NCBI GenBank assembly: GCA_950295325.1
Contig: OX485803.1
Span: 18,414,001 to 18,478,000 of the forward strand
Source: Polytrichum commune
Taxonomy: Eukaryota > Streptophyta > Polytrichopsida > Polytrichales > Polytrichaceae
Direction: 5' to 3'
DNA length: 64,000 nucleotides
Shown: in pieces, positions 2,868-63,700 of the stretch
Layout of the letters: each line of letters begins with the position of its first letter
How positions within the stretch are numbered: the first letter of the stretch is position 1
Notes under the pieces: model-generated
What the model saw: only the letters and a program-made list of their open reading frames with translations
What the model was told of the DNA's origin: nothing
Databases searched by the model: none
Translations under genes and position numbers: made by a program

Positions 2868-5800
2868 TTACAGATGAAGCGGATGAGTTTGAGAAATAAC
2901 CGGTTGAAGTTCAAGACTTCAGGAAAATTACCCCATGATTTGGGAAGAATGTATGGGATATACCTCAAAAGGGTATCTTATAAACGTGGTGTATTCAGAT
3001 GAACTCATATAAGCCAACATTTTAATCTGGGTGAATAGTATAAACCCTACATAAGATGTTCACTCCCGTTTACTTCCAAATGCATTCAGAAAGTTAAACA
3101 AAGTTCTGAGGGTACACGTTGTGCATATCACGAAGTACTTGGGTTCTCCAACCAATAAACTACATTTGAACATAGATACTGCCACAAAAAATTGCTCAAA
3201 ATTGTATGACTATGTTTAACACAGTAGAATTAACATGCTTAGGGCGCTAAACACGAACGACAGAAATCAATATACTACCAAGAATCGGGATAGGCATGTG
3301 CCGTTGCAAAATAATCAACCCCGGATTGCAGATGATTTAGGACAAAATCTGTGCCCAGTGTACTGGAGTGTTCGGATTCACGCTTGAGGTACGCTTGCTC
3401 TTTGACGCATAAAATCCCTCCACACCAACAGTCCAGAGATGATTGTCCATCATGTAAAACTTGATTGTGTATAAAGTATAGTGGTTAATGTACTTCAAAC
3501 ATGTCCTTCATGAAGAAGCTTCATCTAGGCTGATTGATATCCTATTGGGTATAAACATGTATGATCAAATGTACATCGACAATGTCCTTCATTACAAGAG
3601 ATGCACATCATTGAGAGGATCATTTTCAGAATGACTCCGCTACTTTAACAAAGGCAACGTAAATGGAAAACCTTCAAGAACCAAATTGTACCTGCAAAGT
3701 ATTTCATGAAGGATCCAAACTGCATTCGGGCTCGTTTTACAAGCTCCCAGCCCAAGATGGCAGCATCGTTAAGATACTCCACTTGGGTATACGAATTCAC
3801 TCTTGTCAAAACAAGTTGCCAATTGATGGGATACATCGGGGCATGAATGTATGAAAACAGAGTGCATTATGCATCGAAGGAATAGTGATTGCAGGAAAAA
3901 TGATTATCCTAGTATATCTATTATGTGCCCTAGAGTTGTTCCCCTTAATAAGATCACAGCATGTCCGTAGTACTTATATACTTTCAATAACTGACCAAGT
4001 TCACCGATATGACTTTTTCTTAGAGATGGGGTATGAGGACAAAATCCACAAAAGTCTGGTATTTTTTGATTTGAAGTATTTTTTGATTTGACATGATCCT
4101 TGTAGTACTGGCGGCATATGACATTGGTGTAGAAGTCATCGTCAGCAGTAACGTTCTCTCCTGCCGCTTGAGCCAATGCACGCAACAAGAAGTTTTAACA
4201 CAAAATATAATCAGTACTTGGAATGTGCTTTTACGAATCAAAGTCTAACGCTTCAAGAGCCTGTCATGACAACCTTGAAATTGCTCGCCAACGCTGTTTG
4301 TTGAGAAGGCAGTGGGAGAAAGAAAAACCGACCACATTTCATCCAAACGAAGCTTCCAACAAAATCTATAAGCTGGTATAGGGTTTAGAGCTTAAGCTTT
4401 CTAACGAAGATACATGAAGCTGAGGTAACTTCCCTTGGTCGTTAAACATGTGTGGTTTGATAACAGACTTCGTCCAGACCATAAGAAACTTATGATAAGT
4501 TTTCATTTTGACTTAGACAGGATGACATACTCCTACTTGTTCCTCTCGTACTTGAGTGCAAGCAAAAATGAACAAACTGCTTGTTCAGATTCAAGATGGT
4601 TCGAAATGAGAAGCTCATCCATCTTTGACCTGCTTGCTCCAGAGTCATTCAAACGAGGTACAAATCCCTTGGCACAACAAAAATCCCTTCTCCAACAGCA
4701 AGTTGCCTCTCAGGAGCAAACAAACAAGTCTGTGCTGGCAAATGGAGCGTGCACGTTCAAAGACAATTCAGAACAAATACTAGACAACAATGAGATCGAC
4801 GCAGGGAGAAAGAGAGAGCTGACTTTTCAAACTTTTTTCAAAGCTTGAATTTTCTTCCTAATTAGAGGCCAAATCCTTCAAACTCTTCTTCATTGCAATG
4901 CAAGGTCGGTTGGATGGGAATTTTTCCTAGACTCTTTCGACTTCTTTTTCAACATTCACATTTGTGAAAAACTGCTTGTTTGCATGATAAAGTATATAAT
5001 TTTTCAAATATAGTTAAGTATGTGCATGGTGAGGTATCCATAGGTTGTGTATTGGGCTAAGTTGCTTTGCAAGAATGTATACCATACCTAGGGTTTCGAT
5101 TTTTTTTTTAATGACATGCAAAATAAGGTTTTGAGTATGAATGTCTCATACCTCAGAAGTTCAAGCAAACATCCTTTGTTTAGTACAAAACATATGTAAC
5201 ATTACCTCAACAACTATGGAGTACTTACTAGGGTATAAGTTCCTAGTAACTTCATCCAATAACATTGTATAAAAACTCTTGAGCATAATACATCATTATA
5301 TGTGTTGAAAATGTGAAGGGCATGCCTCACTTGTGCCCATGCCATCAACCAACATATATTTGAGGATTAGTTGCATGCATGAGGTAAATAATAGCAAGAC
5401 CCAGTTGTCATCCACGTCACACACCATTAACAAAAAGTCAAATGCATTGTGGTATTTCATATTATTTCATTGAGTGCAAGATCACTATTGAGCGTTCAAA
5501 CCTGTTCCTTTGCCATGATTGGGTAACTCCAAGTAGAATACTTCTCTTGTGGTTTAACCTAACTTCTCGCATGTTTAGCACGTGTATATATTGCCTCGGT
5601 AAGTATGAACAATGTGAGCACCTCCTCTCACTGGCATGATTGATAAAAAGGAGGCTCATTTAAGGTTAAGGGTTTATATTGGAGACCTTTACCATGGTAA
5701 ATTCCCATAAATCCTAGATTCTAACCATGGTTTAGTGATGTGAGTTACGTATGTAACCTTGGTTATTTTACCGATTCATCTATCATAGTGGTAAATTTGT

Positions 5801-17148: not shown

Positions 17149-17811
17149 TTACAGGTCGTCATCATCTAGCTTAGGTTTAAAGTAAACCTCTTTAAAGCTG
17201 TCCCTCATCAAAGATTGTGTGTTGCCACTTGGTGTCGTAATTAAAGAACGCTCCTGATCACTCTCGCTCTCCACCATCTCCTTTCCTTCCCCAAAGTCTC
17301 GAACATTGTCCACACTCGGATGTTGCACTTCCGGACTGTTATCAGGTACTTGTAGACCCTCCGGCAACAAACAATTACACATATACCCTACCCTCGCAAG
17401 GCGGTTGACCCACCCAGGTATTCCTTTTCCTGTTAACCTTCGACAGACATCTTCTGAAAAATGGTTGCAGTTCTTCACTATGAGATGGTATGTGTCCCCA
17501 TTGTACTCATCTGCGCATTGCTCAATAAAGCTTCGAAATTCTGCTGCGTTGAGGTTTGTAGTTCCAAGATGTACTGAAGACCGATACGTAAAACCTGGGC
17601 AAGACTTGGGCTCGACTTCAAAAACTCCACTGGTAGCATAATCATGCGCCCCAAACGCATACTCAGCTCCATGTGCTTCAATACCCGAGTGGAAAATCCC
17701 TAAACCCACCCAGTAGACATATCCATTCATGGGAGTCAAGTCATACACATTTAGGTATACAGGCGCTCGACAATTAGGGTCTGATCCCTTGGGACATGTA
17801 GGGCCTGTCAT
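17149..17811 (-). CDS. PPPDE (DeSI-type) isopeptidase-like protein
   Basis: A 220-residue protein in one uninterrupted frame. The PPPDE fold spans about residues 15-150: it opens with APVYLNVYDLTPMNGYVYW, carries the catalytic histidine in FHSGIEAHG (His41), the family phrase GAEYAFGAHD, VFEVEPKSCPGF, and the catalytic cysteine in LIVKNCNHFSEDVC (Cys115). It then continues WVNRLARVGYMCNCLLPEG, as in plant deSI-like proteins. These are thiol peptidases that remove ubiquitin or SUMO in the animal members; the plant substrates are unknown. The acidic tail ends DDDDL and is poorly conserved. The ATG at 17811 is chosen because the conserved domain starts soon after it. Just upstream, an acceptor-like TTCAGCCAG suggests a 5' leader intron reaching toward the GC-rich region near 19.5 kb. 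Plant relatives usually have introns in the coding part; none is visible here. Confidence 0.93.
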   Translation of the reverse strand: MTGPTCPKGSDPNCRAPVYLNVYDLTPMNGYVYWVGLGIFHSGIEAHGAEYAFGAHDYATSGVFEVEPKSCPGFTYRSSVHLGTTNLNAAEFRSFIEQCADEYNGDTYHLIVKNCNHFSEDVCRRLTGKGIPGWVNRLARVGYMCNCLLPEGLQVPDNSPEVQHPSVDNVRDFGEGKEMVESESDQERSLITTPSGNTQSLMRDSFKEVYFKPKLDDDDL

Positions 17812-18267
17812 ATCTCACAGCCTCTTCTTCAGTTGATAAGGGGAGCAATCATCAACACCATCCTGGCTGAATTTGTATTTCCAACTCCAGCAATGACCTA
17901 AATAGATCATTCATTCAATCTCCTGCTGCAGATTGACTCATTTCAGTCACAATTCCTGAGTGAAACACAGAAAGTGCTTGTCAGCACAGTCTATATGCAA
18001 CGTAAAAACCCAGTTGGCAGTATGGTTGTCATATAATTATCAAAGACTCAAAAATCATGTGCTAGTGTAAAAAGTGTGTCCCCACGTGAAGAGCAGATCC
18101 GGTTCAATTCAATCTGTGACAGTTCATAAACCCTTTCACTGCACCATCTTTGTTCAATCTCCCAGCGCACTAGAGAGCCCTCCAAAAACAAACAAGGAGT
18201 ACAAGAAATTACCAATTGATGACACAAAGATAGGAAGAATGCTGCCCAGTATAACCACTTCCCTCAT

Positions 18268-32462: not shown

Positions 32463-35400
32463 TTAGGGGCCATCAGAAGGGGCTGGAGAGGAACTATGAG
32501 GCGGTTCAGGGGTACTCGTGCGAGGTTGCCCTGGAGAAAGACTACGTTGACGGGGTGAGATGCTCCTGTTGTCTGGTGAAGCTGACATTTCACGTCCAGT
32601 TGGTGACAATATGTGATCTGGTGATTCACTACCCCTGTGTGAAACAACATATTTGTGAGATATTTCCAAGATTCAGATATGGCTCAAACCAGGATTGTAG
32701 AAATCCATGGTTGGCAGACTTCACAAGAAATTGCAGCTGTTCATAAGAGCAAGATTCCTATGCATCCAGTAAATTTCATCCTATTTGAAAGTGGCTATAC
32801 AGTGCAAGTGGAAGCCTAGGTGGCAAACCCTGGCAGTGGCTTGATGAGATAACTTGCCTGACAGGTGACAAGTCCCCATTTCTTACAGCCACCTCTTTCA
32901 CTGGCTCTTCTGAGTCTGAGCGCCTGCCTGGACTTCGACTCATGCTCCGGCTAGGACTGCAAGAAACATTCTTTCTCCATGGGCTGGTGCTTGGCTTTCT
33001 TCGAGGACTGACTGCCCTCCTTGGACTGCAGTACAAAAGAGCAAAAGAGACCTCATGTTGTCAAAAATAGTACACAAAATTTTGCCTTTGAGAAAGAGAA
33101 TTGGGATAGGCAATTGAGATCCCATAATGTATTCGCCCCTAAAGGGTGAGACAAGTAATATCTGGAAAATACACACATCTTTGATAAATCATGTTCATGT
33201 AATCCTAAAGTACCTGTGGCTTTCATGAGGAGAAGCCTTTGGTCTGTCTGACATGCTACGGGATGTCCGCTTGACATCCACATCACCACGACCGCTTCGG
33301 CTTCGGCTTCGGCTGCGACTGCAGTTTCGGCTACGGCTTCGGCTCTGGCTTCGGCTGCGGCTCCGACTAAGGCTTCGGGTTGGACTGCGGCGTCGTGAGC
33401 TGTATCCCCTCTCTCTCTCCCGTTCCCCACCACGATATCTCTCTCGCTCATCACGATATTTATCCCTGTCCTCACGATACCTATCACGCTCATCACGATC
33501 CCGGCTGCGTCGGCGATAATCTCTTGCATACCGATCATCATCCTTGCTGGACTTTAGATCCCGGCTGCAGACAATCATTTATCCAGTCAACATCATAAGG
33601 AGACTTATATACCATCATAAGAAAGAACAGAGACATGGCAAGAAGACCAGTGAATGAGGACAAGAAGGTAACATGTAGACAGAAACAAATTCAACAATTT
33701 GAAAATTGAACCAGAGTAAACTATATACAAAAATAATTGTTCCTTAGTCTTATGTTCTTTTCTTTGGTTGCCATGGTGACATTGAGGGTTCGTCCTGTTT
33801 CTCAAGTGAAAATAATATATTTCTAGCTGAATCTGAATTCTTCAACTCCAATTCCGAGGTCAATATTTCTAACTAGATTGACCCTTGAATTGCTCAAAAT
33901 CAGGGAAATTGAAGAATGAAACCACTGATGAGTAATTCTCATGACAAGGAATGACACAATGCCAGCAGACTACTCTACTAATGAACAATATATCTGTACA
34001 TAATGTGCACACCAGCCACTTGATGAGTCCAATAGGCAATTGAGACAACATCACACCATCATCTTAGACATAAATTGAAACAAGAAATAAATATACCTTG
34101 CACGCTTTGGGCTGCGGCTTCTGGATCTGCTAACTCTTTTCAGGTTTGCTTCAGTTATTCTTCCTCGTTGACTGCAAATCACCAGATTGAAAGGTGATGA
34201 AAAGTCTGAGTAGATCTGCAGACTAAAAGAACTCTTTTGCAGTGATGTACCATTATCGATGTAGTGTTACTTAGACATCACCATAACAGCACTTGCTGCT
34301 ACCATCAATATATGCAATGGCCACAATCGCGATGAAAATACTCATATACATCAGCTGGCACTCATCACTGAACTTCAAATTTGAACCTGGAAGCACACCA
34401 ATTACTATCCACTGACTTCTTATCTGGTGCCCATCTAACAAATACGAGATTTCATCTACATTGCCTGTAGTAGCTTGTTATCTGAGAAAGTATTAGCACC
34501 AATCTACACCATAAACTGAACACTTTAAGAAACAGTAGAAAATGTGCAATTGACAGACAGCTGCATCTATTAAGATACAGCAAGCCTGTCTGCTTACTTG
34601 TAAGGCCCATGCTATAAGTAGACCCCACACGATGGCAAAGGAACCATATGTTCATGATGTACAATATAACCTTTTTGTGCACATATCTAGACCTGGTTGC
34701 ACAATTTTGGGGACAGATTGGACTCCCTTTCCAAGGGTTGCTTCATGGCTGCCAGACTATGACAGCAGATCTTAGTAAGAGACTCACATTGGCTCATCCT
34801 TTCGACCATACTTCGCAAACTGCACCACGATGTGTCTTCCATCAACAGTCCTACCTGCATCAAACCAACATACATAAAGGAGGTATTAGGTAACATCAAA
34901 TCACTTACATGGTCTCCATCGCCCGACCATACTTCGCATACTGAACCACCATGTCTCGCCCATCAACATTTCTGCCTGCATCGTGGAAAATCAGGTGCGG
35001 AAACAACTTAGATGTGGCTTGGAGAAGTCTGCCACATACGTTGACTGCTATTAAGAACTAGGACTCCGACCACACAAGTTCAACCAAGTGGCTGCTTGGC
35101 AGTACTTGTGATTTACCACATATTATATGAGATATCTCTACAATAGTGTCCGATAAAACTATCCTGTTAGGGGATGTAGAGGAGCCAACACTGAAGGTGA
35201 TAAGAAGGATTGGTGGGAAACCATCTAGGCGCTCTATTGCCTTCTGTGCCTCGTCAGCATACTTGTATCGTACGAATGCAAATCCTCGAGATTCTCCAGT
35301 CCTGACAAGATGACAGAATTTCCGGAAGTTAGGTCAAGATCGTCAACAACGACAACACAGGAAGAGATGGTTGATTCAAAAATACTAACAGCACCGAGCA

Positions 35401-36685
35401 TCAAGAAGAAAGGGAAAATAAATTAGGCCAATGCAGTCCATTATGGTTGCCTAATCAGTCCAAATAGAGTTATCGATCCAGCGATGAAAATGAATAACAC
35501 ACTCAAATGTTTTCCTAACAACATCTTCTACCTAAGAGAGATCGTTGCAGCGTAATATACCCTTATGAGACACCCTTACCTACGATCTCTTGGGATGAAA
35601 ATATCAACCACCTTCCCGTAACGGTCAAATAAGGGATAGAGATCATCTGCACTTGTTCCTGCAAACGAGGCAATCGGAATGAGAGAAGCGTAGGCAAAAA
35701 CGCTAGGACATCATCAAAATCGAGTTCCACGTGCTACTCACAAAGGAAAGAAAGGTGGCTGTCAGGAATGTAATAGACCGAAAACTGCGTCCAAAATAAT
35801 AAAAACGGAATTCACGCAATTGCAAAGCCTCTCACACGCAGGGGAGGTGACGGGAACCGAAACATAAGTTGTCTAAATCATTGAAGTAGAAAATGCACAG
35901 AAGATTGACTTCTAAATTACAACATGAACGTCAAGACGAACTTCAAGAAGCATCTATCGCTTTGTTTTACACACAACAAGAAATCCTCGTGCTTCAACCA
36001 CGAAGTAATGGAAGCTAATGGACAGAACACTGCGTTTGACATTAAAAATTTTGGAAAATCTAAAATTGCAAAACCTCTCACACGCAGGGGAGGTAGGAAC
36101 TGAAACATGAGTTCTCTAAGTCTTCAAAGTAGAAGACGCACAGAAGACTTTCCATGAACATTGACTTCTAAAACACAACATGAACGTCAAGACGAACTTC
36201 AAGAAGCACCTATCGCTTTGCTTTATGCACAAGAAGAAAATCCTCGTGCTTGCTTCAACCACGGAGCTTACTTACGAACCATGCCGCAGCAATGAAGAAG
36301 AGGCGCAATAAATGAAATAAAGAAACAAACAACTATCCGACAACAACGTCATCATCAATCAAGAAAATGATGATGCACGTCAGCCAAAGGTTTTCGCAAA
36401 CGAGAAATCGCGAGCAGCAATTTAATCAGAAATAACAGAAAACATCCAATGAAACTCGTGGAGAATGATTACCTACTCCGCTATGTCCAGAAGAAAAACT
36501 CCAAAAAAGAAAAAGAAAAAGACTCCAAAAAGTATCAAAAATCAAGCCGTCACGTCTCGAAGAACAATGCAATGGCGTTTGTATAAATCCGTCGCGCAAA
36601 ACTACTTACGGAAGGTGATGTTGAGCACGAGCAGGGAATACGTGTCCCTGATGTCCGGAGGGCCAGCTCTTCCGAAGTGCGACAT
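32463..36685 (-). CDS. SC35: SC35-type serine/arginine-rich splicing factor
   Basis: Nuclear splicing factor: an N-terminal RRM binds exonic enhancers and the RS tail recruits the spliceosome. Coding exons (minus strand, in order): 36685-36610, 35658-35580, 35301-35222, then either 34975-34909 or 34854-34788, then 34171-34097, 33564-33214, 33025-32858 and 32634-32463. Phases agree throughout and give 355 residues. The start MSHFGRAGPPDIRDTYSLLV is the plant SC35 signature. RNP2 is LLVLNI (18-23) and RNP1 is RGFAFVRY (57-64); FDRYGKVVDIFIPRDRR lies between them. The tail holds long RS/RD runs, then SP-rich repeats ending SSPAPSDGP. The next-to-last intron (32635-32857) has a GC donor (GTCAG|gcaagt). 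The fourth coding exon is duplicated (see separate entries). Intron 1 carries a long internal duplication. Arabidopsis SC35 is about 300 residues, so this tail is longer. Confidence 0.95.
34788..34854 (-). other. SC35: SC35 alternative exon 4B (end of RRM)
   Basis: 67 nt, acceptor GATGCAG, donor CCAAT|gtgagt, entry phase 1 and exit phase 2. Encodes RTVDGRHIVVQFAKYGRKDE followed by P. Same length and phases as exon 4A, with 14 of 21 residues shared. Lies 54 nt downstream of 4A in the transcript. If used after 4A, the junction reads ATG TAG, an immediate stop. Confidence 0.85.
34909..34975 (-). other. SC35: SC35 alternative exon 4A (end of RRM)
   Basis: 67 nt, acceptor GATGCAG, donor ACCAT|gtaagt, entry phase 1 and exit phase 2. 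Encodes RNVDGRDMVVQYAKYGRAME followed by T, which continues in the next exon as IQRGRITEANLK; this spacing resembles the plant SC35 continuation. It completes strand beta-4 of the RRM. Confidence 0.88.
35819..36265. repeat. Two-copy direct repeat of about 200 bp in SC35 intron 1
   Basis: The block from ATTGCAAAGCCTCTCACACG to TCCTCGTGCTTCAACCACG at about 35819-36009 recurs at 36065-36265, offset about 246 bp. A shared core TGAACGTCAAGACGAACTTC is exact. Copies are about 85 percent alike by eye with small indels. No reading frame is kept. Could be a duplicated regulatory segment or a simple local duplication. Confidence 0.85.
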
Positions 36686-60755: not shown

Positions 60756-63700
60756 TTACTGAGAATGCATAAAATAATGCAGCGCTGCTTGATACCCTCC
60801 CACGAGCGCTGTAGCAGCCAACCCATGTTGAGCAATTCGAATGCGTAAACCCCTCCACAACAGAGGCTCATCAAAGGGAAGAATTCCTACAGTTCTTGAT
60901 AACCAGCTGCCAGGTTTCACCCATTTAAGGAATCGCCTCTCCATCGCAATGTGCTGACAATCAGAAAAAATCTTGTGAGGAACATTGCTTACTGATACTG
61001 TGAAAAGGAAATACTCAAACGCTCATGGAAGTAGTTGCATAAATACAACTCAAAAAGAATCAAGACTTCGTCCACCAACAAGACTTCCAGTTGTTGACAA
61101 CCAGACTCGTGCCATTTGTTTCTTGCGCATCTGGATATGTCACATAAAGTGTGTATTGTGATACTTGATGGTTTTTAAAACAAAAGAGATTACTTGAGCA
61201 TTATTAGAAACAAAGACAGAACACATTTAATCCAAGCGATCACAACGATCTCTCTATGTAATTTGAATCCCTCTGTTGAGCCACCACTTATGGGTGGCAA
61301 CTTTTCTACGTTGACCATTATTCTGGCCCAAGGATATAACTGTTGCAGTTTTCTCACGATGATGTCATGTATCTGAGCGGCACAAACTAAGTTACTTATT
61401 AGACTTGAGAATGACATTGTAAATATACATACTGTGAGTACATATACAAAATGTCCCCAGATCAATTTTACCTCCATTGATTATGCAAATTCAAGTCTAA
61501 TCTGGTAAAAAACTAATGTTAAGGTCCTGAAATCTCTTCTGTAATTTTTTGTCAACAGGTTTGCTTCAAAGAGTTCCTTATTATGAACCTACACCCTTTC
61601 CATGCAATCGTGCTCCTGTGGCTCTATATTCAGACATCAGGACTCAACAGATTAGTTCTTATTATTCTTAGCCTGAGTAGGTGTTGGAATGATAATCAAG
61701 TCTTGAGGATATTACCCTTGGTATGATTGTAGCTTGACTCCTAGTCTTTGCAGTGTCCAAAGTATGGGAGACAGCTGCTGCACCAGAGGCAGCAATTCCA
61801 GCAGTCACAGTCAGCTGCCATGGCTTCAGTGGAGGAATTTCTTCCAAAGAGCTGATGTTTACAACAATCATCACGCAAGTCTTAGATGACCATCTCTTAT
61901 TTAATAAGAAACATACATAAACCACATGCATAGCATTCTTGAGAGTGGGAAAGGACACTCTAGCTTCAAGAATAACTTTTCAAGAATCAAGGTCCTGAAG
62001 TAAATGGATGAATGCCAAGGATAGTCAAGTGGCAAGCTCTCATTGGTTGACATCTCATTGCTGCCTATCTTTGGACACGCAGCCTTCTTCCATTTACCAA
62101 GATTTAATCGAAGACGTACTTCCCAAATGAAATTATTCTTAGGTTATCCAGATTACCTTAGAATTATTCCATTTGCATTGGATCGGTTTCAGTATAACAC
62201 TGAGCTAGAATTCAAACCAGGGTCATCTACGTCTTCACTTGAAAATGGATACCAATCTAAGGCCAGTGTGAGGCCTTCCACCAATACATCAAATACTACT
62301 GCAATTTCTTCAGACTCAAATTCCCAGCAAAGCACTTCCTTTGGCATGAGGACTACCACAGGCACAAATGCATTTCTGCAAACTTTGTCGTGCAACAAGG
62401 GGGCTTCCAGAGATCCTTGAGAAATAGTACCTGGGTTTAGGCTCCATTTTAAAAGCCTTCAATTCCAGCAGAAGCTCATAGAGGAACTGCCAACTTCCAA
62501 AGAACACACCTGCATATGTAGCATCACGAAACATTCCAGGTCGCACACCTCGCCAAAGCGTACTCAAACCTTCCACATCAGTCACGCGCTTCAAACCAGA
62601 AACATCTCTCACAAGTGGAGGATGCCCTGAACCATTTTGCAGCCACAGATATCTTCTTAAAGAGCTGACAATATTGGAATTTGAGTGAGGTAGACCAATA
62701 AAACACCGATGGACTCGGTTCCATTGTGCTTCACTGTATGATTTGCTTACAGTAGCACCATTCAAAGGTAGACTACAAGCTGTGAGCTGGGCACGCAATT
62801 TGAGGATGTCAAATGGAGTTCCCACAAATGACTCTACAGAACCCGCAAAAAGGCCTGCTAAAAAGGCTTCAGAGATGGTAACCTGGTGTGAAGTTCGCCC
62901 ATCTGCCACAGCACTCAAGCAAGCATCCCATCACCTTTCTACCTTGGATTTCATTGAAATCAGTGCACAGTTCTAACTGTATACCCAATCCAACAAATCC
63001 TTGCAATTTATGTCATTCCCTTAGAATATCTGTAACCTTTCTTGTAAGTTCTTATTCATCATGCTAAACAGTGCTAAACAAAATAAGAAAACAGTTGTGT
63101 TTATGATGTTGCAGCATCTCTGATATACTGGAAAAATCCCCTTTACATAGCACTCTAGACACTGAGTGATAACCTATTCATAACTTAACTTGCACATATA
63201 GTGACACCACATATTCTGAAGCCAGCTATGTTGCAAGGGACTCAAGCACCTGTGATAAAGGCACAGCTGAGTTCATACACCCCAAAGCGTGCACCTAATG
63301 TTGACAGCCTGCCTAGAAGCTGCCAACCAACCCCTCCATAGAACCCTGCAGAACAAAATCCAGAGCTTCAGTGAAACAAGGATAAGTAGATAGAGCAGGA
63401 AGAAACAAAACCAAACATTAGAAAAATTTGGCATCCCTATCTACATGGTATTGTTAAGCATGTGTAAGGACGTTCTCTTTCTATTCAAGCTTCAAGAATA
63501 TATTTTCAAGCACCAATGTCTTTTGAGTACATGCATGAATGACAAAGTGGCAAGCTCTCATCACTCGACACCTCATCATGGCCTCTTTTTATCTTTGGAC
63601 ACAAAATCTCCTTCCATCTACCAAGATTCAATTGATGAGGTGCGTCCCAGATAAAATCATTCTTGTGTTATCTGGAAACTCTAGAATTATGTCTTACATA

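Follow-up and report, generated by a model that had tools for sequence, protein, structure and literature searches.

A probable pair of tandem, mutually exclusive exons in the RRM of an SC35 gene of Polytrichum commune

The closest precedent for the exon pair described here is found in vertebrate U2AF1 (U2AF35). In this gene, the tandem 67-nt exons Ab and 3 differ in seven residues of the RRM-like UHM, and the use of both exons, or of neither, leads to stop codons and decay (PMC5224494). Other described cases are more distant. In Volvox, cyn23 contains two 106-nt exons with 13 residue differences, although this gene encodes a cyclophilin and not an SR protein; this pair was picked for verification in that study, as stated in the accessible sections (PMC4378016). 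In Arabidopsis, a 2014 survey predicted 99 candidate mutually exclusive exons, and genes of this type had not been described there before; these exons are of the homologous kind, like the SC35 pair, but SR proteins are not among them in the portion of the article at hand (PMC3923563). A proteome study of the same plant lists, in the part available, 11 mutually exclusive exon events (PMC13136898). For Physcomitrium patens, four SC members were reported in the accessible part of PMC7105729, and a term search for "mutually exclusive" found no occurrence in an article on splicing in this species (PMC5457400), nor in an SR gene survey of 27 eukaryotes (PMC3173450). Our literature search, in which the coverage of SR surveys was incomplete and some sources were accessible in part, retrieved no report of such a pair in SC35 or in any other SR protein.

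We analyzed a window of 64,000 nt of Polytrichum commune (contig OX485803.1, positions 18,414,001 to 18,478,000 of the forward strand), whose minus strand carries a gene of the SC35 (SRSF2) type. The borders, lengths, and frames of the gene were computed from the located exons, except where Table 1 indicates otherwise. Its product shows a match to RRM_1 in the N-terminal part, followed by the RS-rich region encoded by exons 6–8. SRSF2 was the top SR-protein match among the PDB chains, with one multi-domain PABP chain ranking above it by E-value, and, as judged from its sequence, the gene belongs to the SC35/SRSF2 subfamily of SR proteins. BLAST matches to the intact paralogue L003 (see below) were obtained at the region of exons 7 and 8. 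By eye, exon 7 apparently has a GC donor (CAG/GCAAGT, at 32857-32858), which would make the following intron of the GC-AG type. The minus strand of the window also contains open stretches for a PPPDE-type peptidase (Peptidase_C97, 17152-17814) and for a mitochondrial carrier (62319-62930).

Table 1. Exons of the SC35 gene and the intron that separates 4A from 4B (positions in the window; a slash marks the exon border).
Feature	Position	Strand	Characteristics	Basis
Exon 1, coding part from ATG	36610-36685	-		computed
Exon 2	35580-35658	-		computed
Exon 3	35222-35301	-	constant, upstream of the pair; weak donor ATG/GTTTCC	computed
Exon 4A	34909-34975	-	67 nt, RNVDGRDMVVQYAKYGRAMET; acceptor GATGCAG, donor CAT/GTAAGT	computed
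4A/4B intron	34855-34908	-	54 nt; branch-like CTAAT 22 nt from donor	computed
Exon 4B	34788-34854	-	67 nt, RTVDGRHIVVQFAKYGRKDEP; acceptor GATGCAG, donor AAT/GTGAGT	computed
Exon 5	34097-34171	-	constant, downstream of the pair	computed
Exon 6	33214-33564	-	RS region	computed
Exon 7	32858-33025	-	RS region	start computed; 3' end by eye
Exon 8, coding part to stop codon	32463-32634	-		both borders by eye

The original prediction had proposed two adjacent 67-nt exons with GATGCAG acceptors, matching phases, and a 54-nt intron between them, and all of these elements were recovered by computation. The reading frame crosses into each exon after the first base of a codon and out of it after the second. 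In the window gene, they are identical at 50 of 67 nt, and 7 of the 23 codons that they touch give different residues; from this sequence likeness, 4A and 4B are homologous. A chance likeness of two open stretches was ruled out, because the pair recurs elsewhere in the genome, at two further loci, with the identical 54-nt spacing. The possibility that 4A, the 54 nt, and 4B constitute a single long exon was also discarded, given that an immediate stop is encountered.

We translated the possible splices of the window gene and of L003. In both, the 3-4A-5 and 3-4B-5 splices were open through exon 5, whereas a stop appeared within ten codons in the 3-4A-4B-5 and 3-5 splices, as well as when the 54-nt intron was retained. 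In the window gene, the reading ended in ...ETM-stop upon joining 4A to 4B, in ...LDVNEEE-stop upon skipping both exons, and again in ...ETM-stop upon retention of the intron. The ATG TAG that had been anticipated at the 4A-4B junction was exact in the window gene; in L003, however, this joining caused a +1 shift and the stop was found four codons past the junction rather than immediately. The design that would produce a stop if both exons are included thus resides in the length of 67 nt, which is not a multiple of three, rather than in ATG TAG itself. We also observed that the donor of exon 3 is weak in both intact genes (ATG/GTTTCC at window position 35222, and ATG/GTGGAC at position 3429 of the reverse strand of L003), so that the step into 4A or 4B would be open to regulation.

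The pair resembles that of U2AF1 in that both reside in a splicing factor, comprise tandem 67-nt exons that differ in seven residues, and yield a stop upon inclusion of both exons or of neither (PMC5224494). They differ in that U2AF1 belongs to another family and the variable segment of its UHM includes the RNP2 motif and a long helix, in contrast to the last strand of the RRM in SC35; moreover, the vertebrate choice was proven by experiment, whereas that of the plant pair is predicted from sequence. Homology with exons Ab/3 was rejected, since this gene is of the SC35 and not of the U2AF35 type, and the likeness concerns the design only. Because the genes belong to different families, the shared length of 67 nt and the seven changes look like a coincidence.

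A DNA search of the same genome located the pair at two further places, both on contig C2, with 86% and 82% identity. Searching with the protein sequence of 4B (E up to 10) gave six matches, corresponding to both exons at each of the three loci. With a query spanning the RRM and the first part of the RS region (E up to 1), 67 matches were obtained, 14 of which lay at the three SC35 loci with at least 69% identity, while the remaining 53 showed at most 56%; no SC35 gene lacking the exon pair was found in this genome by this search, a type of search that can miss genes. One of the two additional loci, L003 (C2:21.86 Mb), is intact across the compared exons. The other, L004 (C2:61907500-61915000), is a copy of L003, approximately 87% identical to it over long stretches, with the lesions of a pseudogene: insertions in exon 2, the loss of one base in 4A, and a stop in exon 5; no exon 1 was recognizable within the stretch examined. 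The intron between 4A and 4B is exactly 54 nt long in the three loci, the pseudogene included, while the lengths of the other introns in the window gene and L003 are 951/1357, 278/180, 246/209, and 616/712 nt. The splice sites of 4B are also intact in the three loci. Within this genome, the pair has survived in an intact paralogue as well as in a pseudogene, with 4B less conserved than 4A.

Elsewhere in this genome, we noticed a cluster of 14 near-identical matches to LHCB-type genes on both strands of C5:1751760-1846160. Weaker clusters of chlorophyll-binding matches were present at C2:29388478-30911038 (7) and C4:5552659-5568151 (4), and these may represent early light-induced proteins. Among the PDB chains, the LHCB1-like protein of locus L005 matched 9vfj_2 (512.4 bits), an odd chain, followed by 8htu and 7xqp (460.8 and 458.9 bits), both of them Physcomitrium patens structures, with the next chain at 437.9 bits; this agrees with a moss, whereas Pfam and PDB searches with other genes of the window gave no taxonomic placement.

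A tree of the six exons separated the three 4A from the three 4B sequences with a split support of 0.999, which indicates that the exon duplication predates the gene duplication. Constraint was evaluated by comparing the two intact genes. Exons 1-3 encode an identical protein, yet 29 of 55 synonymous sites have changed (dS 0.905), and exon 5 shows a dS of 1.33 and six residue changes. Exon 4A is identical to its L003 counterpart at 64 of 67 nt (dS 0.14, one residue change), and exon 4B at 59 of 67 nt (dS 0.31, three residue changes). Of the synonymous sites of the pair, about 31 in number, 6 have changed; exons 1-3 and 5 together show 40 changes at about 73 such sites (Fisher p 0.001, using rounded site counts as in all of these tests). 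Taken singly, 4A gave p 0.004, and 4B was borderline (p 0.051). Exons that contain splicing signals typically show few synonymous changes.

The noncoding sequences around the pair are conserved as well. In the 60-nt flanks, 41 positions before 4A and 38 after 4B are alike in the window gene and L003, values above the 29-36 of 60 observed at seven other exon edges. Among 2000 random intron pairs, drawn from two introns per gene, 41 was never reached, and 38 was reached in 9. The 54-nt intron can be aligned with that of L003 without gaps and is identical at 41 of 54 positions, compared with 23-28 (ungapped) or 27-40 (gapped) in the 3'-terminal 54 nt of four other introns; the top gapped value, 40, corresponds to the stretch located directly before 4A.

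In steric exclusion of the alpha-tropomyosin type, a donor lies too near the following exon's branch site. Mammals require about 50 nt between the donor and the branch site, and plant splicing is poor below about 70 nt. Within the 54-nt intron, a conserved block, ACCTAAT-CCTCC, holds a putative branch-like motif, CTAAT; the distance from the A of this motif to the donor is 22 nt, and that to the acceptor end 31 nt. The SC35 pair would be like alpha-tropomyosin in the closeness of the donor to the putative branch site, and differs from it in that the whole intron is short. As a reference for intron length, the chaperonin introns of the same genome were estimated to be 113-576 nt long (median 281), although this sample is small and hand-picked (36 neighboring profile-hit pairs between chaperonin exons). 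A putative branch point at 22 nt from the donor, together with other introns of at least 113 nt, favors steric exclusion, which is the likely cause of the 4A/4B exclusion predicted from the sequence. According to this model, the spliceosome would connect exon 3 to one member of the pair, 4A or 4B, and this in turn to exon 5; the joining of 4A to 4B would be blocked because approximately 22 nt from the 4A donor to the branch site would be too little to accommodate U1 and U2 together. Leaks, namely the inclusion of both exons or of neither, or the retention of the intron, would shift the frame and generate an early stop, and the resulting transcripts would be removed by nonsense-mediated decay. 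Both exons would appear in transcripts, and two SC35 products would be made, differing at seven residues in the final strand of the RRM and just beyond it, possibly with different RNA preferences. The mutually exclusive design with built-in stops and probable steric exclusion put forward in the original prediction is well supported by the anatomy of the locus and by its conservation in the paralogue, but it is not without precedent, in view of the available description of vertebrate U2AF1 (PMC5224494). Taken together, these data indicate that 4A and 4B probably form a pair of tandem duplicates, used in a mutually exclusive manner, within the RRM of this plant SC35 gene.

Two other explanations concern the role of 4B. 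This exon could be mainly regulatory, its use or misuse cutting the level of SC35 via stop-containing transcripts, with the 4A protein being the only one that matters. SR genes are often under the control of unproductive splicing, and three of the alternative splice outcomes of this gene do end in early stops. In addition, the protein encoded by 4B is less conserved, with QSAKYG in L003 in place of the QFAKYG of the window gene, whereas its splice sites and spacing have been kept; from this sequence, exon 4B of L003 may be acquiring a regulatory role or dying out. However, 4B used alone is in frame in both genes and its product matches RRM_1 with 71.8 bits (window gene) and 69.2 bits (L003), while an exon that acts only as a poison need not preserve its frame, its length, or an RRM strand; we consider a mainly regulatory 4B unlikely. 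It is still less probable that 4B is a functionless duplicate whose likeness stems from recent ancestry or from gene conversion between the two genes. This idea draws on the faster change of 4B relative to 4A, and on the decay of L004, an indication that copies of the SC35 gene can degenerate. Such conversion could also reduce synonymous differences, and might account for part of the conservation. Nevertheless, the dS of exons 1-3 implies that the split of the genes is not recent, and the splice sites of 4B are intact in all three loci; furthermore, 13 mismatches in the 54-nt intron, situated amid two better-kept exons, would be more simply explained by selection than by one converted tract.

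Regarding the mechanism, competing RNA structures such as those of insect Dscam, rather than spacing, could set the exclusion, and the conserved intron flanks of the pair are compatible with this. Nonetheless, the short spacing would be enough by itself. RNA folding yielded no signal above the shuffled controls. For the two intact genes, which are the only two independent sequences on which conserved competing pairings were evaluated, the consensus fold had an energy of -58.9, compared with a column-shuffled mean of -59.2 (sd 5.7), and 105 of 200 shuffles were at least as good. A fold of three sequences that included L004, a near copy of L003, gave -80.6, a value that has no shuffle comparison. 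Structure-guided exclusion of the Dscam type was therefore not favored, and we regard it as very improbable. The arrangement that best accommodates these observations continues to be a mutually exclusive pair with steric exclusion.

In the window gene, the 4A and 4B isoforms differ by N/T, D/H, M/I, Y/F, A/K, M/D, and T/P, respectively. Matches to RRM_1 were obtained for both isoforms and for the 4B form of L003. In HMMER alignments to human SRSF2 (2lea), the first proline of YGRPP is matched by A/K and the second by M/D; we take these prolines to be Pro95 and Pro96 of the human protein. The residue aligned with the first of these prolines is A or K in the window gene, and E or N in L003. Pro95 is the residue of SRSF2 mutated in myelodysplasia, and in the available part of PMC4863743 its change to His leads to the gain of inclusion of CCNG exons and the loss of inclusion of GGNG exons. 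Since the two exons differ at the residue aligned with this position, it is plausible, by analogy, that the isoforms have different RNA preferences; in the human gene Pro95 is changed to His by somatic mutation, whereas here the change would possibly be a splice choice and involves other residues. A tentative extension of this idea, which we consider possible but doubtful, is that this plant lineage made SC35 a two-state factor, in which the choice between exons of its own RRM sets the residue that biases human SRSF2 toward C-rich or G-rich enhancers, a choice possibly controlled by SC35 itself. If this were true, the cell would have a natural equivalent of the Pro95 change with which to readjust the set of targets of a general splicing factor.

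Mutually exclusive exons have been little described in plants, according to the accessible part of PMC3923563. By analogy, the close parallel with U2AF1 suggests that the same solution may have arisen more than once among the factors that recognize splice sites early. The SC35 pair offers a simple, paralogue-conserved, and testable case of a splicing factor that possibly alters its own RNA specificity by splicing.
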